Virus record (IMG/VR): IMGVR_UViG_3300036853_000134
Coordinates: 1 to 64,000 of that record
Source of the DNA: a virus
Length of the DNA: 64,000 bases
Direction: 5' to 3' (one strand)
The position numbers and the translations under genes are program-made. Below, piece after piece: positions 1-25,901 of the stretch. The notes beneath the pieces were generated by a model. That model worked only from the letters and a program-made list of their open reading frames with translations. It did no database searches and was not told the origin of the DNA. Positions within the stretch are counted from its first letter, which is position 1. Every line of letters starts with the position of its first letter.

Positions 1-2842
1 GCTCTCGCAGGACTTCTGGCGGTATCTCTTTGCCTTCCTTGATTGCCTGCGTAATACCCTGCTGTGCCGCCATCTGTGCGGGGCTTAACTTTTCAGACGG
101 CCTGCGCAGCGGTTCTGTCTTGCGCGCTTCCATTGCCGCAATAGCGGAGTCATTTTCCTGAATCTTACGACGGATAGAGGCATTCGCCGGATTCCCCGGG
201 TCGCGCACCATTTCCCCTTGCAGCCGCTCACTGTCGATTTTTAGTGGCCCTATCTTTCGATCCATCTCCGCGGCCAGCAGTTTCGGAGTCTCTCGCAGAT
301 AGTGCTCATCGAACTCTTTCGCCGTCATTTGCCAGGGCTCTTTAGTTGGCTCGGAACGCTTCGCGGGCTCAGGTTTTGCCGGTTCATCAAACTTCACGTC
401 GGCCGCTTTAATCGGCGGCTGTTTTACTTCTGGCTGCTTCACTTCTGGAACTGGCTCATTCGCCTTCTGACGCTCTAATTGCCGCGCCCTGATTCGCTCA
501 ATTGCAGATTGGCGACCTTCGTCGGTTCGCTGAAGTTTTGGTTTTACCGTTTCTTGCGCGGGTGGCTGACGTGGACCGTCTTCCCGTCCGGGTAGATTAT
601 CTTGAGTAGCCTGCTCCCCGGCGGGACGTTCTGCGCCCACCGCGTCAGGAGTATCTCTCGCCCCTTTTCTGAGTCCTTCGTCTTTTCTGCGTTGTTTGTC
701 TCGTGCGGCTGCGGCTTCTGCTGCGTCGGTACTATCGGCTGTGCCATAACTTAACCCCGTTCCATTTGCTGTACGAATATTGCCGTCCATGTCTTCGTAG
801 ACGAATCTTGATGCTGTCAATTCTTTGTTTACCCGGTCAACTACCCGGCCCATCGCCTCAGGATCACTCGACCGTGCGTAAAACTCATCGCCCGACCGAT
901 GATAGACCTTAATCGTTCCCGGGGGCTCTTCAGCGACCGCACGCTTAAACATCTCCCCGACGCCAGGCAAGGCGACTCTATCAACTCCTTCGTGCCCAAG
1001 CCCCTTCGCCTCGTTCATCGGCTTGAAGTCGTCAAGATCGGCGTAACTGATATGCGGATGCGACTCCGCCATTTTGCGCTCATCATTTCGAAAGGCTTCC
1101 TGATTCGGGAGGTCCATTCTATTGCTGGTTGTGTACGCCGCGCGAATCTCCGCATCGGTCATCTCGTCGGGAATCTTCCGCTCTTCTGATCGGGCTGTAA
1201 TGTCACGGCGCTCCGGAGTGCCTGCTGGTGGCTCGCCTGTTGTCTGCCGTCTATCCTCGCCCCGTGGCTCTGCGCGACGGTCAGCGGGCAGGCTTTCCGG
1301 CGTCGTTGATTCAGGGGCGGCGGGCTGTCTCACGGCTTCTATCGCAAGCGTTTTCCTGTCGGCATCGTCAAGCGGTTGACCTTTTGCGTGCTTCATATCT
1401 ATACGAGCAAGATCGTCTTCGTGTCCAGGCGGCAGAGATTCCATTGTCGGCACTGACTCAGGAGTCATCGATGGGGCCGATTCTTTCACGCTCTGCATCG
1501 TCGCCGTTGCCTGTCTGGGATCCATTCCAGCATTAATCATTGCTGTTTTAAGTGCGGCTTCAGATTCGGGCGATTTGGTCGTCGCGAATTCCTGCGCAGC
1601 CCGAACGACGTTTGTGTCGTTGCCAATCTTTTCAGCGCGTGCAATATCTTCCGGCGTGGTTTTCGCCTGCAATTCTTCAACGGAGCCGGGCTTGCCGTGC
1701 CATCCGATTGCGCCAGCCATTATTCCAGTCGTCAATATGCTATGCAGGTCTTTTGCGCCACCGGCCATCCCAGCGGTCACTTCATTTAAGGCGACGTTTG
1801 CCGCCACCCTGCCGAGAAGCGGAGCGCCGCGGAAAAGTCGAGCGCCTGCAATCGGCGTCACGTTGCTAAGTCCGGCTTTAATAATATCCTCGGAATTGCC
1901 TCCACGTCCGGCCGCGCCAGCCATTCCGACTGCAGGCCAATAAGCCTCAGACGCCACACCACCACCGGGAACAGCGCGAGCCAGGGTCAGGTCGGGTACT
2001 AATTCACCTATCGTCCCGAGAGTGTCGCCTGTGTATCCGCGAACGCCTGAGATATTCCCGCGCAACCGATCCTCTTCCGCTGCGTTTTTCAGATACTCAT
2101 AGCCTGATTGAGCGCCAGGGATTCCGATCTTCCCGCCAAGGCGAGCGACGCCGCCAGCAATCTCTTCAGAACGGGCAAATAGTGGATCCATTAAACTTTG
2201 CAGATAATGAGAATCAATACCGAGAGCCTTCTGTTCATTCTCTTCCAGCGGGCCGAGCTTCGCCAATTCTCGTATCGCGGCTTTCTTTTGCTCCGGTGGC
2301 GCGTTTAACGCATTTTGAAATACTGTATCGTGAATAGCCTGTTGCTGTTCAAAGCGGGCTTTTGCCGCGTCAAGATTCGCTTGGCCGCCAGCGCGTTCGG
2401 CTAGTGACTGCGTGGGCCGGTTGGTGATGCTTGAAACCTGATGTCCGGTAGTTTCCGCTTGCGGCTGGTCCAGCAGATCGTCAAGCGTTCTCTGCGGCGG
2501 CGCAACCGGTTTCTGCGTGCCCGGACGATTGGCAGCATTAAACGGACTTTGCGGTTGCGGCTGTTGTTGAATTTGCTTACCGAGTTCGCGGCCCTTCTGC
2601 CAAGCTGATTGTGGGGCTGCAGGCTGTGCTTGTTGATAAGCCCCGCTGAACTTCGGATCCATTGTTTCCGTAGCGGCCGGCTTCGGCGCATCCTCAAACT
2701 GAACATCTGACATTTTGATCGGGGCTTGTTTGGGCGCAGGTTCATCGTCGAACTGCACATCGCTCAGCTTCAGTGGTTTTTGAGCGGGAGGCGGTGCGGT
2801 ATCTTGCTGGTCATCAAATTGAACATCTGCAACATTCAGCAT
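1..2842 (-). CDS. N-terminal part of a giant virion-associated protein (runs off the window start)
   Basis: At least 947 codons, open to base 1. The ATG at 2842 overlaps the upstream stop (TAATG), the coupling used throughout this operon. The N-terminus is Pro/Gln-rich with three copies of an acidic motif DVQF(D/E)D (residues 6-11, 28-33, 46-51); a variant DVKFDE lies near the broken end. The middle is Ala/Gly-rich, the rest charged and helical. No catalytic motif was recognised. Its place as last gene of the virion operon suggests an internal, possibly ejected, virion protein (inference). The frame joins in phase with the one entering at base 64000; together they would encode about 1,781 residues. 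Confidence 0.8.
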   Translation of the reverse strand, partial: MLNVADVQFDDQQDTAPPPAQKPLKLSDVQFDDEPAPKQAPIKMSDVQFEDAPKPAATETMDPKFSGAYQQAQPAAPQSAWQKGRELGKQIQQQPQPQSPFNAANRPGTQKPVAPPQRTLDDLLDQPQAETTGHQVSSITNRPTQSLAERAGGQANLDAAKARFEQQQAIHDTVFQNALNAPPEQKKAAIRELAKLGPLEENEQKALGIDSHYLQSLMDPLFARSEEIAGGVARLGGKIGIPGAQSGYEYLKNAAEEDRLRGNISGVRGYTGDTLGTIGELVPDLTLARAVPGGGVASEAYWPAVGMAGAAGRGGNSEDIIKAGLSNVTPIAGARLFRGAPLLGRVAANVALNEVTAGMAGGAKDLHSILTTGIMAGAIGWHGKPGSVEELQAKTTPEDIARAEKIGNDTNVVRAAQEFATTKSPESEAALKTAMINAGMDPRQATATMQSVKESAPSMTPESVPTMESLPPGHEDDLARIDMKHAKGQPLDDADRKTLAIEAVRQPAAPESTTPESLPADRRAEPRGEDRRQTTGEPPAGTPERRDITARSEERKIPDEMTDAEIRAAYTTSNRMDLPNQEAFRNDERKMAESHPHISYADLDDFKPMNEAKGLGHEGVDRVALPGVGEMFKRAVAEEPPGTIKVYHRSGDEFYARSSDPEAMGRVVDRVNKELTASRFVYEDMDGNIRTANGTGLSYGTADSTDAAEAAAARDKQRRKDEGLRKGARDTPDAVGAERPAGEQATQDNLPGREDGPRQPPAQETVKPKLQRTDEGRQSAIERIRARQLERQKANEPVPEVKQPEVKQPPIKAADVKFDEPAKPEPAKRSEPTKEPWQMTAKEFDEHYLRETPKLLAAEMDRKIGPLKIDSERLQGEMVRDPGNPANASIRRKIQENDSAIAAMEARKTEPLRRPSEKLSPAQMAAQQGITQAIKEGKEIPPEVLRE

Positions 2843-4374
2843 TAGTGATACTTCGTAATATTACCGTCTTTGTCGATTTCGTCCGCTGTGTACTTTTTAC
2901 CATCGGCAGGATTCGTGAAAGTCTTACCGACCATCGGATGCGATTTTCCGCCCGTCGAAGTGCCTGCGTTATTTGACTGCTCCATTGCCGCCGCCTGTGC
3001 CCACTTCGCAGCAAGCGCTTCTTTCTGTGCGTTCAACGGCGCAACCTTCTGATTGAATTCGTCCTCGGTAATATCCCCGGCCGCCTGCTTCTTCCGCCAG
3101 ACGTTAATCATCGCCTGATTTGCGCGCTGCTCGTCTTCAACGGGTTTGAGCTTCAAACGCATCTGATAGTTTGCGGTCAGACCACCTGGACCTTTCGCTG
3201 GCGCGCGGAACTTTTCAGGATTCTCTGCCCGCTCTTTTGCCAGTAACGCCTGAGCCTCCGCGCGCGATTCTTCGGCAACAGTTTTGTCGAGTTTCGCCTG
3301 TCGCTGCTCCTGCCATCTATCGGAAATAAAGTCGCCCTTCTCAGCGTCGCTCATCGCCTCAAATGCCGGATTGCCCGCATAGCCAGCAGCAATCTGTCGC
3401 GTTTCCAGTGACGCTTTATCTTGAGCCGCCTTATTCTGAAGAAACAGTTTGCCGCCAAACTGCTTGTCAATCTTATCAAGGGCAAGCTTTCCAGCCTGAT
3501 CAATTTGCTGCTTCTTGTTTGCCGCTTTAACGTTCTCAAGACTCGTCTGACGCTGCTGCTCCGCTTCCTGCTGCGCTTTGAACGTTTGCAGCTTTACCGG
3601 CTGATCCATCCGCAGTTGCTCAGATTGCAACTGATTCTGATAGCGGGGATCATGGGCGTCTTGTGATTGATCTGCCTGCTTCTCTGTGTCAAATCGACTC
3701 AAATCCCGCTCGTACGCAGCACGATTGCCAAATCCGGGGTTAGCCAGTCCGAGTACTCCACCGATAAGAGCATTGATGGGCCCGCCCGCGATGCCTTTTT
3801 GCGCACCAGCGGAGAAACGCCCCCACGGCCCAATATGCTTTTTATTGGCATCCGTGCTGTTCTGGTAGGTAGTCTGGTCCGGCCGCAATGTCTTTTGGTA
3901 CGTTGAGTTCGGGTCCGAGTGTCGCGGATTATAGTAGTCAATTTCATTCGAAGTTATCGGCTGGTTAGGCGTCAACGGCTGCGGCTGCGACTGCGGCGGC
4001 GTCAGATTCGTCGGCACTATGCCCGCGAGATTTGAGTTGTCGAGTTGCGGATATGACGGTAATTCGGGGTATTGCTGAATCTCTGACTGGCCGGGATCAA
4101 CGCCCATTGCTGGATAATTGCGCCCATCAAAGGTAGTCGCTGGAAGGCTTGTCTTTGCGACTCCACCCGCAACCGGCGCGTTAGCCATCGGAGTAACCGG
4201 TACTTGATCACCCTGAATGTTATTTGACACAGCGCTGGCGAGCGGTCCATAGGTGCCGGAGCTGCCAAGCTTGGCCTCCGACATGTTGCTCGCAGCCTCA
4301 GTCGCCCGCTGGGCGTTATCCTGATCGAGTTGTTTTTTGTAATTCAGGATTCCAATGACAGTATTTGGGCTCAT
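2842..4374 (-). CDS. Virion-associated hypothetical protein, Gln/Pro-rich with coiled coils
   Basis: 510 residues. The N-terminal ~130 residues are Pro/Gln/Asn-rich and probably disordered. A Gly-rich hydrophobic stretch follows near residues 195-220 (GGPINALIGGVLGLANPG), then a long charged helical region (about 230-450) with coiled-coil character, and a small C-terminal segment ending GKKYTADEIDKDGNITKYH that resembles a short beta-hairpin tail. No family was recognised. It lies between the beta-helix protein and the giant protein and is coupled to the latter by TAATG, so a partner internal virion or ejection protein is plausible (inference from position and composition). Confidence 0.75.
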   Translation of the reverse strand: MSPNTVIGILNYKKQLDQDNAQRATEAASNMSEAKLGSSGTYGPLASAVSNNIQGDQVPVTPMANAPVAGGVAKTSLPATTFDGRNYPAMGVDPGQSEIQQYPELPSYPQLDNSNLAGIVPTNLTPPQSQPQPLTPNQPITSNEIDYYNPRHSDPNSTYQKTLRPDQTTYQNSTDANKKHIGPWGRFSAGAQKGIAGGPINALIGGVLGLANPGFGNRAAYERDLSRFDTEKQADQSQDAHDPRYQNQLQSEQLRMDQPVKLQTFKAQQEAEQQRQTSLENVKAANKKQQIDQAGKLALDKIDKQFGGKLFLQNKAAQDKASLETRQIAAGYAGNPAFEAMSDAEKGDFISDRWQEQRQAKLDKTVAEESRAEAQALLAKERAENPEKFRAPAKGPGGLTANYQMRLKLKPVEDEQRANQAMINVWRKKQAAGDITEDEFNQKVAPLNAQKEALAAKWAQAAAMEQSNNAGTSTGGKSHPMVGKTFTNPADGKKYTADEIDKDGNITKYH

Positions 4375-4378
4375 CTAC

Positions 4379-5101
4379 CTACCATTTAGCGTACGACTCG
4401 GCTTTGAATTCCTCTGGCACAAAGTTCTCAATGATTAGCTCGGCGAAAATCTCCATTTGATCGTCTGTTAATCCCATAGCTCTGCCATATCGACGACCAC
4501 CAGTAACCCACCTTTCGACAGTCATGCAGTGACAGCCGCCAATTACGTGGACCTGCATCGGATCGGGATTTGGGACACATTCAATCACGTTATAATGGCA
4601 GCCAGTTAACCAGACGCGGGGACTGATAGTCCATAGTCCTTCATGGATAATCACTCCCGACCCAAGCTCGCAATCTTCAACTCTGGCGTTACCACGAATA
4701 GTAACATCCCCGTCGGCCGTAACGTTCTTCAGCGACGCATTCTCCCTGACCCTGACCTGCCCATAGAGATAAGAATTCTCTACCCGCGCCTCATCGCAAA
4801 CAAGCGGGCAGTCCCGCTTTCCACTGTCGCTAGAAAGAACCGAGCCGACGACTTCCGCCTGATCTGCAACACAAGAGAAGTCAAGTATCTTTCCGCCACG
4901 AACAACCGCCTTGCCCATCACGCGAGCGAGTCTGCCAATCTCCGCCGTGCCTTCAACGCGAGCCTTCCCGTAAACTTCAGCCCCAGGGCGAATTATTGCA
5001 GCCGGAGCGATATAGGCGTGGCGTGAGACATCGCTATCCCGAGCGACAAGACCCTGCCCCTTGCTGTGAGATTCCCAAAGTGGCAATGCGGATGTTGTCA
5101 T
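4379..5101 (-). CDS. Left-handed beta-helix (hexapeptide-repeat) protein
   Basis: 240 residues. Residues ~25-155 are a run of hexapeptide-type repeats, for example AEVYGKARVEG, AEIGRLARVMG, ARVENSYLYG, VTIRGNARVED, the signature of a left-handed parallel beta-helix as in hexapeptide acyltransferases and polymer-forming YdcK-like proteins. The C-terminal 80 residues contain a Cys/His cluster (GCHYN, GGCHCM) and a helical end. No acetyltransferase active-site His could be assigned, so a structural or glycan-binding role is as likely as catalysis. GGAG precedes the ATG. It lies within the virion operon just after the secreted-type proteins. Confidence 0.75.
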   Translation of the reverse strand: MTTSALPLWESHSKGQGLVARDSDVSRHAYIAPAAIIRPGAEVYGKARVEGTAEIGRLARVMGKAVVRGGKILDFSCVADQAEVVGSVLSSDSGKRDCPLVCDEARVENSYLYGQVRVRENASLKNVTADGDVTIRGNARVEDCELGSGVIIHEGLWTISPRVWLTGCHYNVIECVPNPDPMQVHVIGGCHCMTVERWVTGGRRYGRAMGLTDDQMEIFAELIIENFVPEEFKAESYAKW

Positions 5102-5107
5102 AATCTC

Positions 5108-5482
5108 CTACGGATTCAGCGCGCTATCTACCGCCCGCTGCGCTGTCGCTGCTGTATCCGCCGCCGCCTTCGCGTTGAACTCCTGAACGGTCTGCTTAAA
5201 ATCAGCTTTGTAATAAGCGACAACCGCAGGTGCAACCTTCGTCGCGTCAACCACCGTTCGGGTTGCGTCCGTGTAGACATCCAATTGATGCGCCTTCGCA
5301 AATGACAGCAGGTTCGCGGCTTTATTCGCGTCAGCCGATGCCTGATCCACGGTCGAAATGCCGGTTGCCATCGTAATCGTTGAGTTGGATGTGAAGGTCA
5401 CGGGAGCGCCTGCCCGTCCAATCACAACGCCGAATGCAAGTCCAATCAACAAAATGGGTAACGCATACTTCATAATCTTCAT
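5108..5482 (-). CDS. Small exported or membrane-anchored protein with N-terminal signal sequence
   Basis: 124 residues. An N-terminal hydrophobic segment (KYALPILLIGLAFGVVIG, about residues 5-22) is followed by RAGA|PVT, an acceptable signal peptidase I site; otherwise it is a single membrane anchor. The rest is Ala-rich and probably helical. GGAGG lies 4 bases before the ATG. No family was recognised. It is one of four consecutive products in the tail region that start with a signal sequence, so it may belong to an exported or periplasmic set; cleavage versus anchoring cannot be told from sequence. Confidence 0.75.
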   Translation of the reverse strand: MKIMKYALPILLIGLAFGVVIGRAGAPVTFTSNSTITMATGISTVDQASADANKAANLLSFAKAHQLDVYTDATRTVVDATKVAPAVVAYYKADFKQTVQEFNAKAAADTAATAQRAVDSALNP

Positions 5483-5490
5483 AGAACCTC

Positions 5491-5949
5491 CTAGTACAGC
5501 GGCTCGCCAAACAGATAGACATCCACGGTTGCCGCCGATCCGTGGGCCAGGATATTTCTGATAAATAAGGTTTGCGCAGTTACAGTGTCGGTGTTCACGG
5601 CAATCGTCATATCCACGAACTTCGTTGCGCCAGTCAATCCGGTAATTGTTGCCCCAGTTACAATGGTTGTGCCGCCACCAGAAGCCGCGGTGAACACGCC
5701 AATAGTGGCAACGGAGACTGCCAGGCTTGTTGACGCATTTGTGATGATAACCCGACGAACAATATACTTCGGGACGCCAATCGGGATTGAGTTGTCCGAG
5801 CCAGCGGAATTGATGTTCATCCCTTTGACGCGGCCGAGATAGGTGGACATCTCGCCAATTACAACCTGTTGCGCCGAGACAGATCCCAATCGGAATTCAA
5901 AACCAATTACCAGCCCGAGAATTAATAAGGCAATCAATAGATTTTTCAT
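5491..5949 (-). CDS. Exported beta-rich protein with signal peptide
   Basis: 152 residues. The N-terminus has a Lys, a hydrophobic core (LLIALLILGLVIGF) and the end GSVSA|QQ, a good signal peptidase I site. The mature part is rich in Thr, Val, Ile and Gly and predicted beta (ITNASTSLAVSVATIGVFTA). It ends VDVYLFGEPLY. No family was recognised. It starts two bases after the stop of the next upstream signal-peptide protein. It is either a small virion decoration/tail protein carrying a signal peptide or a periplasmic phage protein (inference). Confidence 0.75.
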   Translation of the reverse strand: MKNLLIALLILGLVIGFEFRLGSVSAQQVVIGEMSTYLGRVKGMNINSAGSDNSIPIGVPKYIVRRVIITNASTSLAVSVATIGVFTAASGGGTTIVTGATITGLTGATKFVDMTIAVNTDTVTAQTLFIRNILAHGSAATVDVYLFGEPLY

Positions 5950-5950
5950 C

Positions 5951-7330
5951 TTATGTCACCACCCAACTGCCCGAAATATAGATTGCTATCCAGGTCGTGG
6001 ACGAGGTCGCAATCAGGGTTACGACGCCGCCAATTGTTGAATTCGTGATATTTCCCGCTGCCGCACTGACTGAGCCCGCGATTCTAATCGTCGTTGACGC
6101 ACCGGCGATAACCTTAAGAACCTGCGCGGCCTCCACGATGAAGGTGTAGCGCATCCCGGCCACGGCGGTCGGCAACGTAAAATCAACCTCACCACCAGCC
6201 CCGACGTTGGTAAAGTATGTTCCCTTGTCGGCGGTAACAACGGAATAGTTGGTGGTCTTGGCGGTAACGACGACGCCAGTCAGAAGCTTGCCCAGACCCC
6301 CGAGGGTTCCGGTGTTGACTTCAAGGACCCCGGCAGCATTGCGCCCAAGTCCGACATCCCGCGTGCCCTCAACCGCGTTTGAAGTCCACGCCAGCATCCC
6401 AGTCGAGTAGGTTTGGAGCGCCGTGCCATTAACCGACCATCGCTCGCCATTGGCCATAAACCGAAGCACATTTGACGCGCCCCCTATTCCAGTAAGCGAG
6501 ATACCGGGAAACGCCAGCCCAGGCGTATCGCTGTCTGCGCCGACAGGAACGACAACCTGACCCGTGCCCTTTGGAACGAGATTGATTGGAGCGTTCGATC
6601 CGCTCGATAACGCCGTGAGGTTGACACCTGAACCGGCCGCGAGTCCGGTTATTGATAGTCCATCAGCCTGTGACGCCGTGGAGTTTACAAGCTGAAATAC
6701 CGGGTTTGTCGCGCCATTCGGGCCAGAAGAAAAAGCCGTCGCCGACGCGCTTGTTTGCGTAATCGTCCCTGAATTAGTGGTAGCGCCAAACGCCTGAGTA
6801 CCGGTAAACGTCTGCCCGGCGTCCGTTCGCGCAATAGTCGCCGCCGCGTCTGGAAATGTGTAGGTCCTCGCTGCCGTCGGTCCTGCAAACGTAATAACTT
6901 GCGACGCAATTGGGATTGTCGTATTTGAGTCAGGGAAGGTCGCGGTTCTTGTGCCAGTCGGCGTACCTGTTAGCTTGATATAGGTGGTCGCATACGTGCC
7001 GCTGCCAAATAGGTAGTAATCACGAAACGGCTTGACTGTCGAGCCAGAATCAACACCTGCTTGCGCGAGTAACGACGTATTGATTGACACGGAGGCAAGA
7101 TTGGATAGCGCGGTATTCGCGCCAGAAGAGCCGCCTGTGCCAAAATCAACCCACGTCCCGGCCGGACAAAAGAAGGCGTGTCCGGTATCGGTCGAAGTCC
7201 AGATGCTGCCAGCCGTACAGGTCGCCCCTTTGTTAGCGTCAAGCCCACGCCGGACAAGGTTCGTTGACGGCTGAGCCTGCGCAACACTGACGAACGCAAG
7301 GAAGATAAACAGTAGCAATAGTTTTTTCAT
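5951..7330 (-). CDS. Tail-fibre-like protein with signal peptide
   Basis: 459 residues from the ATG at 7330, which overlaps the upstream stop (TAATG); an upstream in-frame start at 7399 is rejected. Residues 1-19 are a classic signal peptide (MKKLLLLFIF...SVAQA|QPS). The mature protein is Thr/Ser/Gly-rich with repeated short beta segments of the kind seen in fibre stalks (TFTGTQAFGATTNSGTITQ), and a C-terminal segment with VVTADKGTYFTNVGAGGEVDFTLP, typical of phage fibre tips. Function: probable receptor-binding or accessory fibre. A Sec signal on a fibre is unusual. Confidence 0.8.
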   Translation of the reverse strand: MKKLLLLFIFLAFVSVAQAQPSTNLVRRGLDANKGATCTAGSIWTSTDTGHAFFCPAGTWVDFGTGGSSGANTALSNLASVSINTSLLAQAGVDSGSTVKPFRDYYLFGSGTYATTYIKLTGTPTGTRTATFPDSNTTIPIASQVITFAGPTAARTYTFPDAAATIARTDAGQTFTGTQAFGATTNSGTITQTSASATAFSSGPNGATNPVFQLVNSTASQADGLSITGLAAGSGVNLTALSSGSNAPINLVPKGTGQVVVPVGADSDTPGLAFPGISLTGIGGASNVLRFMANGERWSVNGTALQTYSTGMLAWTSNAVEGTRDVGLGRNAAGVLEVNTGTLGGLGKLLTGVVVTAKTTNYSVVTADKGTYFTNVGAGGEVDFTLPTAVAGMRYTFIVEAAQVLKVIAGASTTIRIAGSVSAAAGNITNSTIGGVVTLIATSSTTWIAIYISGSWVVT

Positions 7331-7686
7331 TATCTCACGATTGTCTCGCAGCGAAACTTCTGGTTGATCGCTAATCCCATTACCCAGTAATCGCCGCAAT
7401 GCACCATATTGACATCGCGACCCCCGCCGGAGTTGTACGGCGTGCTGCTGTCGCCATCAAGCGCCCAGATGTAATTCACCGGCGGTAATCCCGCGCCAGG
7501 ACTTGCCATTGACGAGTCGCCGATGTAGACGGTACTGCCTGCAACGCCGATCAGGTTCAACTCGGCGCAATGAATCCACGCGCCAGGTTGAGCGGCAATC
7601 ATCAGTGGCGATAACTGAGTTGGCGTGTCAGCGGCTGCTACTGTCAGGGTTTTAATGAACTTGCCGGGTGTCGGTACTGAAGCCAT
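7330..7686 (-). CDS. Small virion protein, function unknown
   Basis: 118 residues, GAGG seven bases before the ATG. It is beta-rich with Gly-Asp turns (VYIGDSSMASPGAG) and a central Ser/Gly loop. The C-terminus overlaps the fibre start (TAATG), so the two are translationally coupled. It looks like a small baseplate or fibre-associated protein; no family was recognised. Confidence 0.7.
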   Translation of the reverse strand: MASVPTPGKFIKTLTVAAADTPTQLSPLMIAAQPGAWIHCAELNLIGVAGSTVYIGDSSMASPGAGLPPVNYIWALDGDSSTPYNSGGGRDVNMVHCGDYWVMGLAINQKFRCETIVR

Positions 7687-7729
7687 AGTTTAACCTCGAA
7701 GGTGTGCGGGCCGGATGACCCGCTTCAGA

Positions 7730-8113
7730 CTAACGTATATCAATCACTGCCGCGTTACTGGCGTAGAGATTCGTGCCATCCCCAATGAATGTCACGCTGT
7801 CACGCTTGCTCGCGCCGGTTGAAAGAGTCGGGGCAGTTGCGGTCGCAAACTTCGCGGTAGCAGGCCAGGTGAGGGTGCGACTCCCGACGGAATCCTGAAT
7901 GAACTGGATGGTTATTCGCCGACCATTAGGGATATTTGAAAAGGTGAGCGTGCAGTTTCCCGCGCCGAACGTGCAAACAAGAAAGTCCCCGAGTGAAAAG
8001 TCGAGGTTGGTTGTGCCACCCACGGCAAGCGCAATCGCCTGAACACCTGCGCCAGACGAGAGAGGAGAGGTTGGCGTTGCTGGATTTCCCGTACTTGTTT
8101 TAGCTAAAGGCAT
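7730..8113 (-). CDS. Stand-alone copy of the tailspike C-terminal domain
   Basis: 127 residues, GGAG seven bases before the ATG. The whole protein after a 25-residue Pro/Thr/Ser leader matches the last ~100 residues of the tailspike encoded at 8527: shared stretches include FGAGN, the QD...GSRT(L/V)TWPA block and the APTLSTGA block, with both ending in D(I/V)R. Such domains cap phage fibres and are often trimerisation or assembly modules. A free-standing copy could be an extra tip subunit, a chaperone, or a product of gene splitting. It has no signal peptide. Confidence 0.8.
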   Translation of the reverse strand: MPLAKTSTGNPATPTSPLSSGAGVQAIALAVGGTTNLDFSLGDFLVCTFGAGNCTLTFSNIPNGRRITIQFIQDSVGSRTLTWPATAKFATATAPTLSTGASKRDSVTFIGDGTNLYASNAAVIDIR

Positions 8114-8124
8114 CGTGTCTCTCC

Positions 8125-8400
8125 TTACTGTCCTGAGTATTCAGTGACGCAAACTTTTGGCGCTCCGGCCGTGCCGATAACGGTCCATTGCGAAAAGCCC
8201 ACGTCGTCGATGTATTGCTGGCCAGCCAGCAATGGAATGTGATCAGATGTTGCCGCCGCGCCACCGCTACAGATGTAGACCGTGATTGCGGCGTCCCTGT
8301 TGATGAATTCAGCACGGATGCGCTTATTGTTTCCGGCGAGCAGAGTCTTTGAGGTGGCCGCGGTCGTAACCGTTGTGGTTATGCCATTACCTTTATACAT
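8125..8400 (-). CDS. Small virion-associated beta protein
   Basis: 91 residues. The ATG at 8400 has GGAG nine bases upstream; a TTG at 8415 lies on that ribosome site and is rejected. The sequence (TTVTTAATSKTLLAGNNKRIRAEFINRD) resembles small phage proteins with a beta-sandwich built around a solvent-exposed RxEFIN segment, seen near tail genes; no name can be given. It lies between two tail proteins that share a C-terminal domain. Confidence 0.7.
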   Translation of the reverse strand: MYKGNGITTTVTTAATSKTLLAGNNKRIRAEFINRDAAITVYICSGGAAATSDHIPLLAGQQYIDDVGFSQWTVIGTAGAPKVCVTEYSGQ

Positions 8401-8526
8401 AATTAGATTCTCCAAATAGCAGAGAACCCCTTGTTACCTGAGTCAGCCGAGGCGACCCGATGCGTTGGCAATTATGCCCTACATACTTTAACAGATTTGT
8501 ACCGAAACCGTCACAAAATCTCGTTT
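8401..8526. other. Intergenic stretch upstream of 8125-8400
   Basis: 126 bases without an open frame of note. It separates the tailspike from the next gene, unlike the tight spacing around it, and is AT-richer near 8480-8510, where a leftward promoter could lie. No convincing -35/-10 pair was found. Confidence 0.3.
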
Positions 8527-11226
8527 CTACCGAACATCAAGTGCTCGCGACATTTCATTGACCGTCGTACCAGTTGAATAGAAATGGAAAATATCTTTCT
8601 TTCCCGCACCTGTCGAGAGCGTTGGCGCAGTACCGCCGACCCACTTAACGGAAGCAGGCCAGGTAACGGTTCGCGAACCTGTACCGTCCTGAATCAGCGC
8701 AATCGTGTAATAACCCGGAAGCAGATTGGTGAAGGAAAGCGTCGTGTTCCCCGCTCCGAATGTACCCTCGACGATATTCCCCAGCGCAAGATTCAGGGCC
8801 GACGCTCCACCTGCTGTCAGTGAAACCGTCTGGACCGTTAGTCCCAACGACGCGCCATTGATATTTACATCTTTGGTCATCGTCAACCCGGTGGTTGCGT
8901 CCATTGAGCCTACGAGGGTCGTGTTTGGCTTGAAATCTATCGTTGTCGCAGCGTCTATGGTCTCAAGCAGAATCCCTTTTGCGGTGTAGATTCGGAGCTT
9001 ATTCCGCAGGGCGGTCGTGGCATCAGCCGATCCGCTCACAGAGAAAATGGCGTAATTATCGAGGTCGTTATAGAGTCCGAATTGATTGCCGGGGCTTGCC
9101 GCCAGCGATGAATGGAAATATTGCTTTGGCTCCGCGCCCCTGATCACGTTCTCTTGAGTAAGCAACTCGTGATGCTGAAAGCCTGAGCTATGGCCACCAG
9201 TTACTCCAAGTTCACCTTTGGCGGCCGTGCCATTCTCGTACATTATTATTGAGCCGCTAGCTATATTGGAAGCATCGACTATCCGGTTACCGGCTGGCGT
9301 ATCCCACCAAATACCAGTCCCGGTATAAAGCTCCGATTGTCCCGTAAGTTGGATAGCGTCGCCAAAGCCAGTGCCAAACCTGTTGGTTATCAGTATTCCC
9401 GTGTGAGCTTCGTAGATTCCGACCGAGCCGGACACGATTGCTGGGTTAGCCTCGATTTGGAGCGCAATCCAGTTTTGGGCGAGTTCAACAGATCCATAAA
9501 ACCGCGCATTGTCAGACGCGACGATAGCGGTGTAATAACCAATGACGCTCACATTCTGAAGTCCGCCGCCGTATACGTTGTTCAGTCCCGGCATCAGAAT
9601 GCCTACCGCTCGAACATTTGTCGGCTGGGTCAGAACCGTAAACCCCGCGGAATCCGTAAAAGACAGCGCCTCACCCTGATCTATCGCAACGTCCTCCAAA
9701 TCCAGACCCTGCCCGTTGTTGAATTGCAAGGCTGTAAGAACCGGATTGGGTTTGCCCCTAAAGCGGATACCGTTAATTCCAACCTGAAGATAATTAAAAG
9801 TAGAATCGGCAATTATATTTGTGTCGCTGTAGGTCTTCGCGCTCAAGATAGCCGAGTAGTTAGTTGCCGTACCGTCCCAGTCCGAGGAGTCGATAATCGT
9901 TCCAGTTATGGGAATGGCAAGCGAGCCGCCGAGGACAGTCGTACCTTCCCCGGTCAGCCCAATTCGAGTGGTCCCGGCCGACAGTCGGTTGTAGATCGGC
10001 GTGCATAGGATGGAATTGCAGTTTGATTGAAGCGCTCCGTTGGCTCTGTATATTCCAGCCTTGAAGAAGATATTTCCGCCGCCTGCCGTGCCGACGGTCG
10101 CGAGCGCGGTATTGATTGCCGCAGAGTCGTCATGCTGAACAGTCACGCCCGAAACGGTCGTGCTGGCATTCGTGCCGAGTACCAGGGACAATGTTCCGCA
10201 GCCCGATGTTATGGTCGTTACCAGATGTTTAGCGGCGGCACCGGCACCCTTTACGAGTATCCCCTGTCCGTTGGTGCAGGAAAAGGAACCACCGAGCGTC
10301 AGGGTATTCGTTCCAGTGGAGATCGATCCGGATGTCGTCGCGCCGGAACCGCTCGCGCCAAAGTCTCGTTGAATGTCGTATCTCGCCTTGCCCTGGTAGG
10401 CATTCGGGAAATTGATTGTCGTTGTTCCCGCCGATGTAACGACATTCGGGGCTGTTCCAGACGTTCCTACGGTGATAACTTGCGCGTTTGTGGCGTCACC
10501 GTTAATCGACAGAATGCCGCCAGTTGCAGAGTTCGCATCGAGCGTCCAGTGCCCAGGCGTACCGGTAGTGTCACAACGATACAGGCCCTTGGTGACAGCG
10601 TTGCCAGTGTAGATAAACAAATCAGCTTGTGGCGGACCAGCAACACACGATGACGGAAACGTAGAATCTGCTGGCGGCCTGACCCTTGGGGTCTGCGCAA
10701 GTACGCCGATCGTACCTGGATAGCCCACGGTGGGCGCGAACGGACTTTGAAACCGCAGAACCGTTACCAGATTCGGCGTCGATGTGGTTTGCAAAACTCC
10801 GTGCGCGCAGACTGTCTCGCCCCAGGGAATCTTCTTCTGAATGCTGGGCGTGTACTGGATAAAGACCTTTGAATTTGTCCCATTGGTCGTAACATTGTAA
10901 TCACCAACTGTTACTGCTGGCGACACCGCCGGAGAGTTTGGCGCGGGTGTCAGATAGACATTCGAGTCCATGCTCGTAATAACCGCAAACTCTGGATTGA
11001 TTGAAAATATATGCTGGTTCGACTCTGATTCGTTTATTGACTGATCTGGACCGTTTGGCTGAAAGCAAAAGTTAACATCGGTCGTATCCGACGGCATAAA
11101 CTCATGGGGATAGATGCCCCAGAATACCATTGACGCCTGTTGCTGCGCTTTTGAAGGCGGCAGGATGAAATCGACAAAGCCTAAAAAACAGGCAAGAACT
11201 AAAACGACGAGGACAGATTTTCTCAC
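8527..11226 (-). CDS. Tailspike with pectate-lyase-like beta-helix and Sec signal peptide
   Basis: 899 residues from the GTG at 11226 (GGAG five bases upstream). An in-frame ATG at 11292 directly follows the stop of 11293-11475 and also has GGAGGT, but 11 bases away; it would add 22 residues. Residues 1-30 form a signal peptide (RK, hydrophobic core, PPSKA|QQQ). A GAG-type beta module (~330-390) is followed by the pectate-lyase-3 type start (DDSAAINTALATV then GGGNIFFKAGIYR) and a long right-handed beta-helix. The last ~100 residues are a fibre-tip domain shared with 7730-8113. Likely host-glycan binding or depolymerisation. Confidence 0.85.
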   Translation of the reverse strand: MRKSVLVVLVLACFLGFVDFILPPSKAQQQASMVFWGIYPHEFMPSDTTDVNFCFQPNGPDQSINESESNQHIFSINPEFAVITSMDSNVYLTPAPNSPAVSPAVTVGDYNVTTNGTNSKVFIQYTPSIQKKIPWGETVCAHGVLQTTSTPNLVTVLRFQSPFAPTVGYPGTIGVLAQTPRVRPPADSTFPSSCVAGPPQADLFIYTGNAVTKGLYRCDTTGTPGHWTLDANSATGGILSINGDATNAQVITVGTSGTAPNVVTSAGTTTINFPNAYQGKARYDIQRDFGASGSGATTSGSISTGTNTLTLGGSFSCTNGQGILVKGAGAAAKHLVTTITSGCGTLSLVLGTNASTTVSGVTVQHDDSAAINTALATVGTAGGGNIFFKAGIYRANGALQSNCNSILCTPIYNRLSAGTTRIGLTGEGTTVLGGSLAIPITGTIIDSSDWDGTATNYSAILSAKTYSDTNIIADSTFNYLQVGINGIRFRGKPNPVLTALQFNNGQGLDLEDVAIDQGEALSFTDSAGFTVLTQPTNVRAVGILMPGLNNVYGGGLQNVSVIGYYTAIVASDNARFYGSVELAQNWIALQIEANPAIVSGSVGIYEAHTGILITNRFGTGFGDAIQLTGQSELYTGTGIWWDTPAGNRIVDASNIASGSIIMYENGTAAKGELGVTGGHSSGFQHHELLTQENVIRGAEPKQYFHSSLAASPGNQFGLYNDLDNYAIFSVSGSADATTALRNKLRIYTAKGILLETIDAATTIDFKPNTTLVGSMDATTGLTMTKDVNINGASLGLTVQTVSLTAGGASALNLALGNIVEGTFGAGNTTLSFTNLLPGYYTIALIQDGTGSRTVTWPASVKWVGGTAPTLSTGAGKKDIFHFYSTGTTVNEMSRALDVR

Positions 11227-11292
11227 GCGATCTCCTTTGAAGAACTTGTACAAATTGAAATTGAGTTTCTTTGAGACTGCGTTGATAGCCAT

Positions 11293-11475
11293 CTATTGGT
11301 GGACCTCCAAAGCCAAACGCAGCCTGAGCGATAAATCGCGCGGTGATTTTATCCAACTGGCCGCGATATTGGCAATCGAAAATTTACTATGTGAAGTTTC
11401 GTACATATAAGCGTTTAAAGACCTTGCCGTTTCCGGCCGGCCTAAGAGTTCACGGAACTGAACATTAGCCTCCAA
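11293..11475 (-). CDS. Possible 60-residue protein between tail genes
   Basis: Open frame from a TTG at 11475 that overlaps the end of the upstream gene; AGGGGG lies five bases before it. The stop is directly followed by the upstream ATG option of the tailspike. Composition is helical and basic (RDLSLRLRLALEVHQ). No family was recognised. It may be only a translated spacer that couples the tailspike start. Confidence 0.35.
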   Translation of the reverse strand: MEANVQFRELLGRPETARSLNAYMYETSHSKFSIANIAASWIKSPRDLSLRLRLALEVHQ

Positions 11476-12134
11476 TTTGCCCCCTGCTTGATATAGGCAA
11501 GCGTGTCACCCACGGAGCTTCGCGCAAGCCCAGGAAAAGTACTGAAATTATCACCGACGGTGATGAATATCCACCAGCCTTCCGGCGCGTCGTCGAATAC
11601 CCCTGAATAGTTCGTCGTTGCGGTATTCGCGGTTTTCCAGTTATGAAACCCGACAACCGACGGAGTGGTATCGCCATCAAGAAAGGTCTGTTGAATGTCT
11701 AGCAGCGCAACGGTCTGTAGAATGTACGCCGTGAAATCATAAGTTCGCATTCGCGGAACACGGTTGATTAGCGCGATCCCGCCCCAGGTCGTTTCGGTCG
11801 GATTGTAGGGCAAAAAGAAGTCAAGATAGTTTGCGAAATCAACAATCCTTTGATTAACGCTGGTTCCGTCATAGAACGTCGCTCGATAGGTTGCGTTCTG
11901 ATTCTCTTCGCCATCCGTAGTGCTGTACAGGGTAAACGATGGGATTGAAAGCGTTTTGGCTGTCGTATCCGGCGTGCAGGTTACCGATTTGTAATTGCCG
12001 GGCTGCACTGGCTGGCCGTCCGATGCCGTAAACGCCTCACTAATATCAATTCGCAATTCGACCGTCGCGTTATTGTAGTGCCAGTTTTGAAGAGTTAACG
12101 CATCAACTGTGATTAACGGCAAGCGCCCCTCCAC
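11442..12134 (-). CDS. Tail protein, function unknown
   Basis: About 230 residues. The start is uncertain: GTG at 12134 overlaps the upstream gene, while a TTG at 12122 has GGAGG five bases upstream. The N-terminal half is beta-rich with a Thr/Ser/Tyr pattern (TVELRIDISEAFTASDG). The C-terminal 80 residues resemble a fibre-type end: a GFHNWKTANT segment and DDAPEGWWIFITVGDN followed by W-R-L-M-F. Likely a tail or fibre accessory component by position between a CFI-box protein and the tailspike. Confidence 0.7.
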   Translation of the reverse strand: MEGRLPLITVDALTLQNWHYNNATVELRIDISEAFTASDGQPVQPGNYKSVTCTPDTTAKTLSIPSFTLYSTTDGEENQNATYRATFYDGTSVNQRIVDFANYLDFFLPYNPTETTWGGIALINRVPRMRTYDFTAYILQTVALLDIQQTFLDGDTTPSVVGFHNWKTANTATTNYSGVFDDAPEGWWIFITVGDNFSTFPGLARSSVGDTLAYIKQGANWRLMFSSVNS

Positions 12135-12895
12135 GCAAAGTATTCAAACATCGGACGAATCAACGCTCTAATGAATCGGCGACCTTTCAGCCGTCGCGCA
12201 AAAGCTTCACCGTGCTTTAGGTAGAGCCGCAGGAAGAACTTCGGAGCGCGTTCATTGACATACCATCGAGCCGCCACGGTCTTTGGCATATCCCAGCCGC
12301 CAAAGAGTTCAGCCGCAACCCAGCAACCGCCCATCTTCGTACCAAATGCAGTACCCGCACCACCGGCCGCCGCGATGAGCATCCCTTTTGAAACCTCACC
12401 CAGCCACGATGGACGCCGCGAGAATTGATACATCTGATCGGCTTGGCTCGCCTGGGTGTTTGCAAGCCCAGCTTTCGCCAGATCGACGTTTTGATTCATC
12501 CCGGAAGTCGCGAATAGCCCCTGTTGCGCATTTGAAATGTCCTGCCCGACCACACCGGGCACCATTGACGCGACACTACCCATAAACGCACGCTTTCGGT
12601 CGTCGGCGAGCTGTTTGGTATACGCGTCGCCGTTTCCGCCGGCATAGCCAAGTAGCGCCTCGTCGCCGGTCGGTGTCAGGTTCATGTCGCGCATCTTCGT
12701 GCCAGTCGTTACGAGCGCTTGATATTCGGGAGCGGAGCTGTAGTCACCTTTATCATATTGATCCAATTGCTTGGAATACCGGGCTTCCTGCGCGACAATC
12801 GCAGGGTCACGAGCGACGGCCTTCAGCGCTTCCTGCTGTTGCTGTGTGGCCGTTGCCAGTCTTGCGTCGGCTTCTGATTTCTCTTTATTGTGCGT
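12113..12895 (-). CDS. Tail protein with C-terminal CFI-type box; start codon non-canonical
   Basis: Coding-quality frame extends upstream of the first usual start (TTG at 12766) to a TGA at 12914-12916. A strong AAGGAGG (12904-12910) lies in that upstream part, and the only in-frame codons at normal spacing are ACG (12895, 8 bases) and ATC (12901, too close). ACG is taken as the start, giving 260 residues. The N-terminal half is Gln/Ala-rich helix. The C-terminal ~70 residues start with CWVAAELFGGW and continue into a basic helix with FARRLKG, resembling the CFIA-type box found in phage virion proteins. Function unknown. Confidence 0.65.
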   Translation of the reverse strand, partial: THNKEKSEADARLATATQQQQEALKAVARDPAIVAQEARYSKQLDQYDKGDYSSAPEYQALVTTGTKMRDMNLTPTGDEALLGYAGGNGDAYTKQLADDRKRAFMGSVASMVPGVVGQDISNAQQGLFATSGMNQNVDLAKAGLANTQASQADQMYQFSRRPSWLGEVSKGMLIAAAGGAGTAFGTKMGGCWVAAELFGGWDMPKTVAARWYVNERAPKFFLRLYLKHGEAFARRLKGRRFIRALIRPMFEYFAWRGACR

Positions 12896-12936
12896 ATGGA
12901 TACCCTCCTTGTGTCATAATAACACATTGCTACCAA

Positions 12937-14433
12937 TTAGAAGCCCAAAAATGGACCGCCGCCATCCAGAGGATCTTCGCCCCGGCCGCCCGAACCGCCG
13001 CCTCCGCCACCGCTGCCCCCGACCGATGGGTCAGGTGCGGTGATGACCACATTGCCGCTGAATTGCAGATCCTCAAGGGCGTAATCAAATCCGCCCTTGG
13101 TCAATCCCGCTCCAATCTGATCGAGTAGCACGGTCAGATCATCCATTGTTGCCGGCGTGTCCGTGTCGTCAACTACATCAATCCGCAAATATTGCTTATC
13201 AGTTGTCGCGGAGTATTTATAGCCGCCGGGCATCACCAGCATTCGCTTGAACACCAGCCAGTTGTCCCTGATCCCGGTGCCAAAATTCTCAACAAATACC
13301 TCTGCTCGCGGATTTACCTGTGCCGCGAACGCGAAAGGAGAGCCGGGCCGTCCGCCCTGATCGATAAAGGTCGTATCGCCGTTTGTGATTCGAATCAGTT
13401 TGTAGTAATCGGACAAACTCGTTCCGTCATCGGAGCGGTAAACTTCGTAAGCATCGGCATCTGTAAACGAAGGCCAGGACAGTCCGACAGCCCCGGCGCT
13501 TCCAGCGGGGACAACAGCGGGCAAGCTTCCAATCGACAGCGGAGATACCACATCGGAAAGGTAATAGACGGTCGTCGGGGTAATGACCTTGACGATATAA
13601 TGCCTAGTTGCCGCACCAGAGCCGGAAATTACCGAACCGGTGACCTTAAAGGCCGCGCCCTCTATGATCTTCTGTTGCCCAACGGTATTATCCCAAATCG
13701 CCAATCGCAATCTCCATGTCGGATCAAGCGCCGTCCGTGTAATATCGCTGTTGAACTTCGCCTTTCCGACGATAAAGACTTCTTTGCCGGGGTAAAAGAG
13801 CGTTTTTGGAATCGGAGCGTAAAGAGCATCAATGCCACCCAGCCAGATGTTGCCTTGCCCCTTGTGCCAGGCGGAATGAGCCGCTGCTGCGTAGGTCGCA
13901 AAGAATCGTCCCGACACGGCCGTCGACGCCGCTGCGGTCAAGGTTACCTGAGTTGCCGATACAAACGTCGCAATCGTGGTTGAAAGGTCATCCCCAGCGG
14001 CCCCAGCCCCGGCGATGACGATCTTTGCGCCTGCGTCGCCCGCCACAAACTGACCGCTCGCAGAGTCCAGTTGATTCGGAGTCCCAAGGCTGATAATCGC
14101 GTCCGTTCCAGTTTTCAGAAGCTTGATCGACCGTGCCGATTCGGTGGCTGCAACAGTCTCGGTAATCGAAGTTGTAACGGTCGAATCCTGAGTATACCAG
14201 CCAAAAGGACGGTCAGCGTTTCCGGTATAACTCGCGCTGATATAAACAGCGTCGTTGAAATCAAATTCGCCATTGCGAACACGGTTGCCTATCGTCGGAA
14301 CAACAACCGGTGCCGTGACTGTGTTCTGTAGTTGAGTATTCGCGGAACCAAGCCCACTCTCGAGCTCGCTGATACGGTCGTTCAGCGCTCTCTCGCGGCT
14401 CATCTGCGCGTAGTCAACTATGAACATGCTCAT
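12937..14433 (-). CDS. Tail protein with GAG module and fibronectin-III-like domain
   Basis: 498 residues. The ATG at 14433 forms ATGA with the upstream stop and has GAGG eight bases before it; an upstream in-frame start at 14526 is rejected. A short N-terminal coiled coil (SRERALNDRISELESGLG) is followed by a carbohydrate-binding-like beta region, one GAG module (~124-175), a fibronectin-III-like segment (VGLSWPSFTDADAYEVYRS) and a Gly-rich tail ending GGGPFLGF. Likely a structural tail or appendage protein that displays beta domains outward (inference). Confidence 0.8.
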   Translation of the reverse strand: MSMFIVDYAQMSRERALNDRISELESGLGSANTQLQNTVTAPVVVPTIGNRVRNGEFDFNDAVYISASYTGNADRPFGWYTQDSTVTTSITETVAATESARSIKLLKTGTDAIISLGTPNQLDSASGQFVAGDAGAKIVIAGAGAAGDDLSTTIATFVSATQVTLTAAASTAVSGRFFATYAAAAHSAWHKGQGNIWLGGIDALYAPIPKTLFYPGKEVFIVGKAKFNSDITRTALDPTWRLRLAIWDNTVGQQKIIEGAAFKVTGSVISGSGAATRHYIVKVITPTTVYYLSDVVSPLSIGSLPAVVPAGSAGAVGLSWPSFTDADAYEVYRSDDGTSLSDYYKLIRITNGDTTFIDQGGRPGSPFAFAAQVNPRAEVFVENFGTGIRDNWLVFKRMLVMPGGYKYSATTDKQYLRIDVVDDTDTPATMDDLTVLLDQIGAGLTKGGFDYALEDLQFSGNVVITAPDPSVGGSGGGGGGSGGRGEDPLDGGGPFLGF

Positions 14434-22729: not shown

Positions 22730-24055
22730 CTAAATAAACGGATTAGCGAATCCCGAAGGATCGAGATCGTCAATCCGGACAAATGGACCAGGATCGCGGA
22801 CAGCGATATTACCGCGGAAAGCCAGGGTGTAAACCTGCGCGTCGTACATCGCGCCGACTCCGCCGTTGGTAAAGCCGTTGACGAAGGTCATTCCGTATTC
22901 CTTGCCGGTGTAATTGACGAATCCCCACTTGTCGAATTCGTAATAGTCGATGCCGTTCCAATCGCCGTAATACATCTGGGTATTCGGGCAATGCGGATCG
23001 AACATAAACTTATTGCCGCCGTAGGAAATCACGTCATAGCCAAGGTCAAGGTTCTGCAATTTGCCGTCGAATCTCTTCAGCGGGTAGCTGTTTGCGCCCG
23101 CAGTCTGAGCCAGTTGCTCGTAGGCGTTTTTCATCGCCGGATTGCAGATCCACATAAATGGCGAGAACTCCGACATCACTTCTTTGCCGTTTGAACGCGG
23201 GAACATCAGAGTGTTTCGCGCCAGATCGAACAAAGCGGTCGACAGCGGCCGGGGTGTTCCGGAATTACTGAACACGATTGAGCGCAGGCGGTCATAGGTC
23301 AAGCGAGACAGCCCCTGCAATGAAACCGATGTCGAGTTGTCGAGCAACAGTTTCAATCCGGAGAGCGCCAATCCCGCTGAGTTTTCCTGCACAACCAGAT
23401 CGCCAGCGGCAACCGCGCCGCCAGCGCCAGAGGTGGCAACGGCAACGTCCAGAGTTACCGAACGGTCAAGATGATCGATACCCGGCTGAACGATGTAAGT
23501 CTGACCTGTTCCACGCTGTACAAGTCCGGTGGTCACGATGTTGTAGCGACCGTAGGGCTTCATATATTCAGCGCCGATGGGCAGTTTCAGCACCAGATTG
23601 GTTGTTGCGGTGGCGCTGTCAACGATGCCTTTGACGCCTGTACCGTCCTGATAAACGTCCTCGTTCGCTAATTGCGCCAGGGTCGCCAGATCGGCCGAGA
23701 TGTTATCCGGCATCACGTTGCCGATGACGTTCTTTCCCTGCGAAAGCAAAGTTGCCTGAGTGAGACGACCAGAAATGAAGTAGTTCTTGAAGGTCGTCTG
23801 CATTCGCTTATATTTGTTCGAGCTGGCTACCGGGTGCAAGCCGCCTTCAGCCGCCATACCGGCACCGGCGTTTTGGAACATTCGACCGGGAATAAAAGCG
23901 CCACGACCGTTAATGTCTTTGTACTCGCCTTTTTTCTTGGTCTGGATCAGATTGATGAACATCGCATAGGTTGGATACCACTGCTCAATCTGATTACTGA
24001 CGTACTCGCGTTCAATATCTTGAATCGCGGATATATCCTGTTGGTCAACTGCCAT
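22730..24055 (-). CDS. Major capsid protein
   Basis: 441 residues. Position right after the scaffold, size, and features of the HK97-type fold support this: an N-terminal helix (DIEREYVSNQIEQWYPTYAM), a GR-rich loop (DINGRGAFIPGRMFQNAG), a long helix with QLANEDVYQDGTG, and a C-terminal FTNGGVGAMYDAQVYTLAF block typical of capsid P-domain strands. It forms the capsid shell around the scaffold. No accessory decoration domain stands out. Confidence 0.85.
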   Translation of the reverse strand: MAVDQQDISAIQDIEREYVSNQIEQWYPTYAMFINLIQTKKKGEYKDINGRGAFIPGRMFQNAGAGMAAEGGLHPVASSNKYKRMQTTFKNYFISGRLTQATLLSQGKNVIGNVMPDNISADLATLAQLANEDVYQDGTGVKGIVDSATATTNLVLKLPIGAEYMKPYGRYNIVTTGLVQRGTGQTYIVQPGIDHLDRSVTLDVAVATSGAGGAVAAGDLVVQENSAGLALSGLKLLLDNSTSVSLQGLSRLTYDRLRSIVFSNSGTPRPLSTALFDLARNTLMFPRSNGKEVMSEFSPFMWICNPAMKNAYEQLAQTAGANSYPLKRFDGKLQNLDLGYDVISYGGNKFMFDPHCPNTQMYYGDWNGIDYYEFDKWGFVNYTGKEYGMTFVNGFTNGGVGAMYDAQVYTLAFRGNIAVRDPGPFVRIDDLDPSGFANPFI

Positions 24056-25499: not shown

Positions 25500-25901
25500 A
25501 TGGGCATAATTTACGGTTTTCTAATCGGTGCTGCATGTGTCGGCGTCTTCACGGTCTGGCAATACACCAAATACAGGCAGGCCATCCGCGAGGTTTCGGA
25601 TAAGTGGAAGGCGATCAATGACGAGTGGGAAACACGGTATCACAAACTTTACAATTCGTGGATGTCGGGAATTCAACCGACCGCGCAGCAGCGAATGGAT
25701 TGGGATATGAGCAGAATGCTCAAAAAGATGAACCAGATGGAATACGCGCCGACTGAGGGCGATTTGAATTCGTCGGGATTACAAGAAATCGTTAAGTCAT
25801 CAAGTCACTATCGCTCGTTGACACAAGCAGAACTGGACGATGTGAACAGACGAATGCAAGGTCACCGCGAAGTTATTTCAAAGTCGGACCCTTCGGCTTA
25901 G
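25500..25901 (+). CDS. Rightward membrane protein embedded in the leftward virion operon
   Basis: 133 residues on the opposite strand to all neighbours; GGAG six bases before the ATG. Residues 4-22 form one membrane segment (YGFLIGAACVGVFTVWQY), then a charged helical domain with a KKMNQMEYAPTEG segment. Its 3' end overlaps the portal's 3' end by 29 bases. A weak -10 (TAAAAT at 25473-25478) lies upstream. It is organised like a moron gene with its own control (see repeats at 25334-25409); a role in superinfection exclusion or lysis timing is only a guess. Confidence 0.75.
   Translation: MGIIYGFLIGAACVGVFTVWQYTKYRQAIREVSDKWKAINDEWETRYHKLYNSWMSGIQPTAQQRMDWDMSRMLKKMNQMEYAPTEGDLNSSGLQEIVKSSSHYRSLTQAELDDVNRRMQGHREVISKSDPSA

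Follow-up and report, generated by a model that had tools for sequence, protein, structure and literature searches.

Predicted Sec signal peptides on the tail adhesins of an IMG/VR virus and of other tailed phages, with a possible role in completion of the virion at lysis

Assembly of tailed phages is taught as a cytoplasmic process, and the question addressed here is why genes in a phage tail region should encode adhesins that begin with signals for export by the Sec pathway of the host. The question is raised by a stretch of 64,000 nucleotides (the window; positions 1 to 64,000 of the 66,935-base IMG/VR virus record IMGVR_UViG_3300036853_000134). Its tail cluster at 5108-11226 contains four minus-strand open reading frames (ORFs) with signal-like N-termini and three without. 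A sequence-only reading of the window had pointed out the four Sec-like N-termini and the unsignalled genes interspersed with them, and this arrangement is confirmed. The answer favoured here, to which a probability of about 0.5 is given for the scheme as a whole, is that the cluster encodes Sec-exported, disulfide-stabilised adhesins that join virions at lysis.

The largest ORF of the cluster (8527..11226, minus strand) encodes a putative tailspike or fibre of 899 amino acids (aa) with a predicted signal peptide, MRKSVLVVLVLACFLGFVDFILPPSKA followed by QQQ, at 11146..11226 on the same strand. The scorer described below placed the cut after residue 27 (PPSKA/QQQ, the slash marking the cut) with a score of 14.6. 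The start codon is GTG with an AAGGAG ribosome-binding site (RBS), and an upstream ATG at 11292 would make a protein of 921 aa. The C-terminal domain (about residues 800-890) is common to phage tail fibres (phrog_9017, tail fiber, E = 6e-13), and the name tailspike is based on this shared domain, not on a fold. A single-sequence AlphaFold model failed and was discarded (predicted local distance difference test score, 35), and the mature protein has 8 Cys. The 459-aa fibre protein (5951..7330, minus strand; score 23.2), whose start codon shares bases with the stop codon of the gene before it (TAATG), has the predicted signal peptide MKKLLLLFIFLAFVSVAQA followed by QPS (7274..7330, minus strand). 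It has a Cys pair (C38/C55) and gave no phrog match; instead, its middle domain is common to fibre-like proteins and is 63-70% identical to the signalled fibres of phages ctLpZ231 and G002. The 152-aa small beta protein (5491..5949, minus strand; score 17.7) begins with MKNLLIALLILGLVIGFEFRLGSVSA followed by QQV (GSVSA/QQV; 5872..5949, minus strand) and has no homologue in the phage records searched. The fourth product, a helical protein of 124 aa (5108..5482, minus strand; AGGAGG RBS; score 11.6), has a basic n-region and a hydrophobic core within an N-terminal segment of 26 residues (5405-5482), with a poor cleavage site (GRAGA/P). This segment is a weak signal or perhaps a membrane anchor. 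Neither the 152-aa nor the 124-aa protein contains Cys or matches known tail-fibre families.

The 459-, 152-, and 899-aa proteins thus have the n-region, core and small residues at -3 and -1 expected of substrates of Sec and signal peptidase I, and the 124-aa protein has them only in part. The anatomy described in the sequence-only reading therefore holds for three proteins (23.2, 17.7, and 14.6) and falters at the A-x-A-like site of the fourth (11.6), while its remark that three sites are followed by Q is right (QPS, QQV, and QQQ). Evidence for lipoprotein processing by signal peptidase II was not found in the four proteins. No Cys lies close to the core in the 459-, 152-, and 124-aa proteins, and VLAC inside the core of the 899-aa protein, as read by eye, fails the strict lipobox rule because a Lys at -10 breaks the requirement for no charge. 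Domain searches gave no lysozyme, amidase or spanin family match for the cluster proteins, and an identity as signal-arrest-release (SAR) endolysins or other lysis proteins is not indicated.

Signals were called with a home-made scorer that combines n-region charge, hydrophobic core and a -3/-1 matrix and was trained on 29 Escherichia coli signal peptides, which by construction score 13.9 or more (median 19.4). Shuffled N-termini reached a score of 14 in 0.08% of cases. Scores of 11.5 or more, a threshold picked after the data had been seen, were obtained for 4 of 7 cluster genes vs 1 of 67 genes elsewhere in the window (Fisher p = 1.5e-4). No downstream start before the conserved parts is backed by an RBS, except for a weak case at residue 67 in the 124-aa ORF, and the signalled starts are the best-supported starts. 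Judged from sequence, at least three of the signals are very probably functional.

The trait is not, as far as sequence can tell, unique to the window, since signalled tail adhesins were found in the window phage and in at least six other phages. Phage G002 (76 kb) is a distant relative, with 41% identity in TerL over 539 aa, syntenic head genes, and weaker matches in the portal, head protein (MCP), a 748-aa protein and the giant protein; the nozzle matches as well. Its tail cluster (4520-15286) contains eight genes with signal-like N-termini (scores 10.3 to 24); two opposite-strand ORFs called inside it are probably spurious. One of the eight products is a 725-aa tailspike of the pectate-lyase type (PF12708), which weakly matched mannuronan epimerase and pectate lyase in a PDB sequence search and whose C-terminal domain is related to those of the window tailspike and of a 127-aa unsignalled protein of the window cluster. 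The other phages are unrelated to the window phage. G004 and G005 form one syntenic lineage with three signalled tail genes each, and ctLpZ231 (MW202444) has a signalled fibre that matches the 459-aa protein at 63% identity across 106 aa. A small protein encoded next to the ctLpZ231 fibre and a member of the G002 cluster share 38% identity over 108 aa, and both have signal-like N-termini, which are unlike in sequence. A gene beside the ctLpZ231 fibre (L005 35906-36151, minus strand) labelled as a sep15/selM redox domain was considered as an oxidative-folding helper and rejected, as its product has no Pfam match and no Cys.

Two cultivated Burkholderia phages also belong to this group. The records of Bcep781 gp49 and Bcep1 gp51 (NC_004333, NC_005263) note a "possible tail fiber; possible signal peptide domain", and the signals of the two proteins diverge while the mature N-terminus, QFAPGQ[VI]LTAAQLN, is conserved. 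Bcep781 gp49 also holds a lipobox-like LTAC, so that processing by signal peptidase II is possible there. The G007 phage, of the contractile-tail type by gene order, gives the clearest view of how a signal is placed. In its 372-aa protein, a signal of 19-20 residues precedes a canonical tail fibre (phrog_12796, E 1e-27). Alignments to the fibres of Bcep781 (gp31), Orisa01, phiAO1 and a Klebsiella prophage begin at residue 21-23, where those genes start. By these alignments the signal is therefore an addition before a standard module, next to baseplate genes. Homologues that start after the hydrophobic segment had been proposed as a refutation of the export reading; such homologues occur in the G007 family and do not refute it, because there the signal has been placed before a canonical fibre. 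A Gln directly after the predicted cleavage site was seen in most signalled proteins of the window phage, G002, G004, G005, G007, Bcep781 and Bcep1, which include unrelated phages.

Motif surveys of IMG/VR have been used to estimate how common the trait is. Among 100 fibre ORFs with the motif NLVPKGTG, mostly of one uniform type, a single one (L068) was signalled, at a lenient cut-off, and among 35 loci with the motif G[PA]NGxTNPxF and a complete 5' end, seven were signalled (6 distinct proteins). T7, P22 and phi38:1 showed no signals on their annotated tail or fibre genes. The earlier description of Sec-type signals on tail adhesins as unusual is borne out by these counts, and signalled fibres appear to be a minority trait, patchy and well above zero. 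Two candidates from this work were rejected: the proposal that all Bacteroidota phages signal their adhesins, since the phi38:1 tail proteins have no signals, and Bradyrhizobium phage Paso as an isolate that shows the trait, since its match is an internal segment of a T7-type fibre.

Further evidence for an oxidising compartment comes from Cys residues. Mature Cys occur in 19 of 24 signalled proteins, drawn from six phages, and the count is even in 17 of these 19, compared with 67 of 153 unsignalled, RBS-supported, Cys-bearing ORFs of the same genomes (Fisher p 1.2e-4; some of the signalled proteins are homologous to each other). The two proteins with odd counts are small, and one of them owes its odd count to a predicted cut ahead of a Cys that is probably part of the signal. 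In the motif survey, signalled fibres were richer in Cys than unsignalled ones (0.77 vs 0.22 per 100 aa, p 0.006). Of 8 signalled fibre ORFs, three (L165, L157, and L172) have CxxC motifs (LTCPTCVT, SPCLNCAL) in the mature region, against none of 112 unsignalled ones. The even counts lend indirect support to export and cleavage of the signalled proteins. Tail or hydrolase proteins without signals, from phages of Arthrobacter, Gordonia and Rhodococcus, align at 36-42% identity with residues 37-497 of a signalled 497-aa beta-helix-like protein (G004/L155); a PDB sequence search with the latter and with the 899-aa protein gave nothing useful. The 497-aa protein has ten Cys in close pairs, none of them common to four actinophage homologues. 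Nine stand in alignment columns where none of five unsignalled homologues has Cys, the tenth has a counterpart only in a Bradyrhizobium phage, and the one Cys that all five homologues have is missing from the 497-aa protein. This pattern reads as the trace expected of a protein that has moved out of reducing surroundings into an oxidising compartment.

According to the proposed mechanism, the cluster would be a tail-adhesin module in which the tailspike, the fibre and the small beta protein are made as Sec pre-proteins. The N-termini would direct export by the host Sec pathway, and signal peptidase I would remove them from the 459-, 152-, and 899-aa proteins. The mature proteins would then fold outside the cytoplasm, the Cys-bearing ones with disulfide bonds. 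These first two steps are supported by sequence comparisons among several independent phages, and for export the support is good. Afterwards, the adhesins may be retained in the periplasm or at the surface during the cytoplasmic assembly of heads and tails. At lysis the two pools would mix and the adhesins would bind the tail through their ordinary N-terminal modules. We infer these last two steps. A precedent for late joining exists, as P22 tailspikes and T4 fibres join finished particles in vitro.

The main rival to attachment is free secretion, in which the proteins are exported and never enter the virion; these late-region products would instead block receptors as decoys, depolymerise polysaccharides or act as surface adhesins. 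Bacteria do export phage-like fibres: all 21 MAT fibres of Bdellovibrio are signalled, with a beta-rich domain after the signal (PMC10769870). The pectate-lyase-like domain of the G002 tailspike would suit a free enzyme, and Bcep781 holds an unsignalled fibre as well as the signalled one. The sequence-only reading had named both addition outside the cytoplasm and action as free secreted proteins. The two are inseparable by sequence, and the first is favoured because standard fibre N-terminal modules have been kept, as in G007. The 372-aa protein and the signalled 901-aa product of the gene after it are the sole fibres recognised in the 18.8-kb fragment of G007, near its baseplate genes, and this speaks for their use by virions. 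In the window, too, the only candidates for large adhesins are signalled. For these reasons attachment is preferred, and free secretion is considered unlikely, though a serious contender.

Several observations weigh against the proposed scheme. The signal calls rest on a home-made scorer applied to sequence, and the signal of the 124-aa protein is weak. Cys also occur in the three unsignalled cluster proteins of 91, 118, and 127 aa (2, 3, and 2, respectively), so that Cys content alone is not diagnostic of export. Because Bcep781 has the unsignalled fibre gp31, its signalled gp49 need not be a virion adhesin. Virion membership of the four window proteins and a meeting of exported trimers with cytoplasmic virions before or at lysis are both presumed in the proposed mechanism.

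It is improbable that the N-termini are uncleaved membrane anchors, or virion elements for DNA entry, in place of signal peptides. The long core of the 124-aa protein, with its lack of a good cleavage site, and the long core of the 899-aa protein would fit such a role. However, the other three proteins, like most of those in the other phages, have good A-x-A-like sites with Q at +1. In Bcep781 gp49, Bcep1 gp51 and the G007 family the conserved domain starts right at the predicted cleavage site, and Cys counts are even. An inner-membrane anchor, as the sequence-only reading had also suggested, is accordingly least favoured for the 459-, 152-, and 899-aa proteins, with their plausible cleavage sites and even Cys where they have any, and possible for the 124-aa protein. 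More doubtful still is capture by phages of host surface-adhesin genes of the MAT type, signal included, as accessory genes. The Bdellovibrio fibres show that phage-like signalled adhesins exist in bacteria, and a signalled 895-aa fibre without Cys on a contig of 39% GC that carries TerL (L149; G008 3234-5921) may, judged by eye, be such a case. The domains found here nevertheless match phage tail-fibre families, the signals sit on canonical phage modules, and signalled genes occupy the tail position in the related phage G002 as well. A last reading, by chance or by wrong start codons, could appeal to the calling of starts by rule and to the GTG start of the 899-aa ORF with its upstream ATG; it is very improbable and already disfavoured by the shuffle rate, the clustering, the lack of supported downstream starts and the recurrence in several phages.

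Several known systems resemble the cluster in part. Bcep781 gp49 and Bcep1 gp51 are tail-region fibres with a signal-like N-terminus, an A-x-A/G site followed by Q and an even mature Cys count (14 and 4); they differ in that each is a single signalled gene of a contractile-tail phage and is unrelated to the window N-terminal domains. No function has been reported for them in the open-access papers searched. Canonical fibres and tailspikes (phrog_12796, phrog_9017; Bcep781 gp31, T7 gp17, P22 gp9) share domains, gene position and a presumed receptor-binding role with the window proteins, but they lack signal peptides, and their folding is cytoplasmic. The MAT fibres of Bdellovibrio bacteriovorus, likened here by description, are phage-like trimeric fibres that are exported with a signal peptide and work outside; the family is marked by a conserved beta domain of about 130 aa right after the signal peptide (PMC10769870). 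Unlike the window proteins, they come from bacterial genes, not from a phage tail module, and serve the bacterium's own surface and predation. Sec-exported lysis proteins of phages (SAR endolysins, Lys44 of fOg44, and spanins; PMC6116005) also use host Sec signals, but they act in lysis, and no lysis domain was found in the window cluster.

The three unsignalled proteins of the cluster, all encoded on the minus strand, are a 118-aa protein (7330..7686; score 3.4), a 127-aa stand-alone version of the tailspike C-terminal domain (7730..8113; score 2.5; phrog_5596, E 2e-11; phrog_9017, E 2e-10) and a 91-aa protein (8125..8400; score 5.4). The 127-aa protein has a Cys pair, C47/C54, that is absent from the signalled tailspike copy. 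Upstream of the cluster lies the gene for an unsignalled protein of 230 aa (11442..12134, minus strand), which has a match (27% over 149 aa) to the post-signal domain of the ctLpZ231 fibre. In the tail region, the signalled genes are immediately followed by one for a left-handed beta-helix (hexapeptide-repeat) protein (4379-5101, minus strand). Outside the cluster, the product of 44655-45185 (minus strand) has a classic lipoprotein signal, MKLKQVLTLSLIAILLTLSAC followed by G; it is possibly an outer-membrane lysis or exclusion protein, and its signal suggests a diderm host. Recognisable head genes are TerL (29579-31321), portal (25873-28647) and major head protein (22730-24055). A small, N-terminally hydrophobic protein is encoded on the plus strand at 25500-25901, between the portal and a 398-aa gene of the otherwise minus-strand head module. 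The head genes have few relatives in phage records: TerL matches are 28-48% identical over partial length, and the major head protein had no match among the phage records searched. Peptide-pattern scans of IMG/VR gave no useful close relatives of window proteins. Host assignment via TerL in bacterial genomes was abandoned as not informative, with just two Bacillota loci matching the N-terminal half only. A giant minus-strand ORF exits the left end of the window (1-2830) and returns at the right end of the record (G000 61497-66935), which makes a circular or circularly permuted genome probable.

Fibres and Sec signals are known parts, and what appears new is their recurrent combination in phage adhesin modules. 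The open-access papers searched describe neither this combination nor such a mechanism, beyond the notes in the Bcep records. We hold it possible, at somewhat short of an even chance, that several lineages of tailed phages finish their virions outside the cytoplasm by Sec export, periplasmic oxidative folding and attachment at lysis, with disulfide-hardened receptor-binding parts. The occurrence of the trait in the cultivated phages Bcep781 and Bcep1 makes the proposal directly testable. If true, such phages would carry hardened receptor-binding parts of a kind that the reducing cytoplasm would not allow, which would explain disulfide-rich fibres and change the understanding of fibre folding, superinfection and decoys. 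Completion of the virion coupled to lysis, if shown, would be a new mode of tailed-phage assembly.

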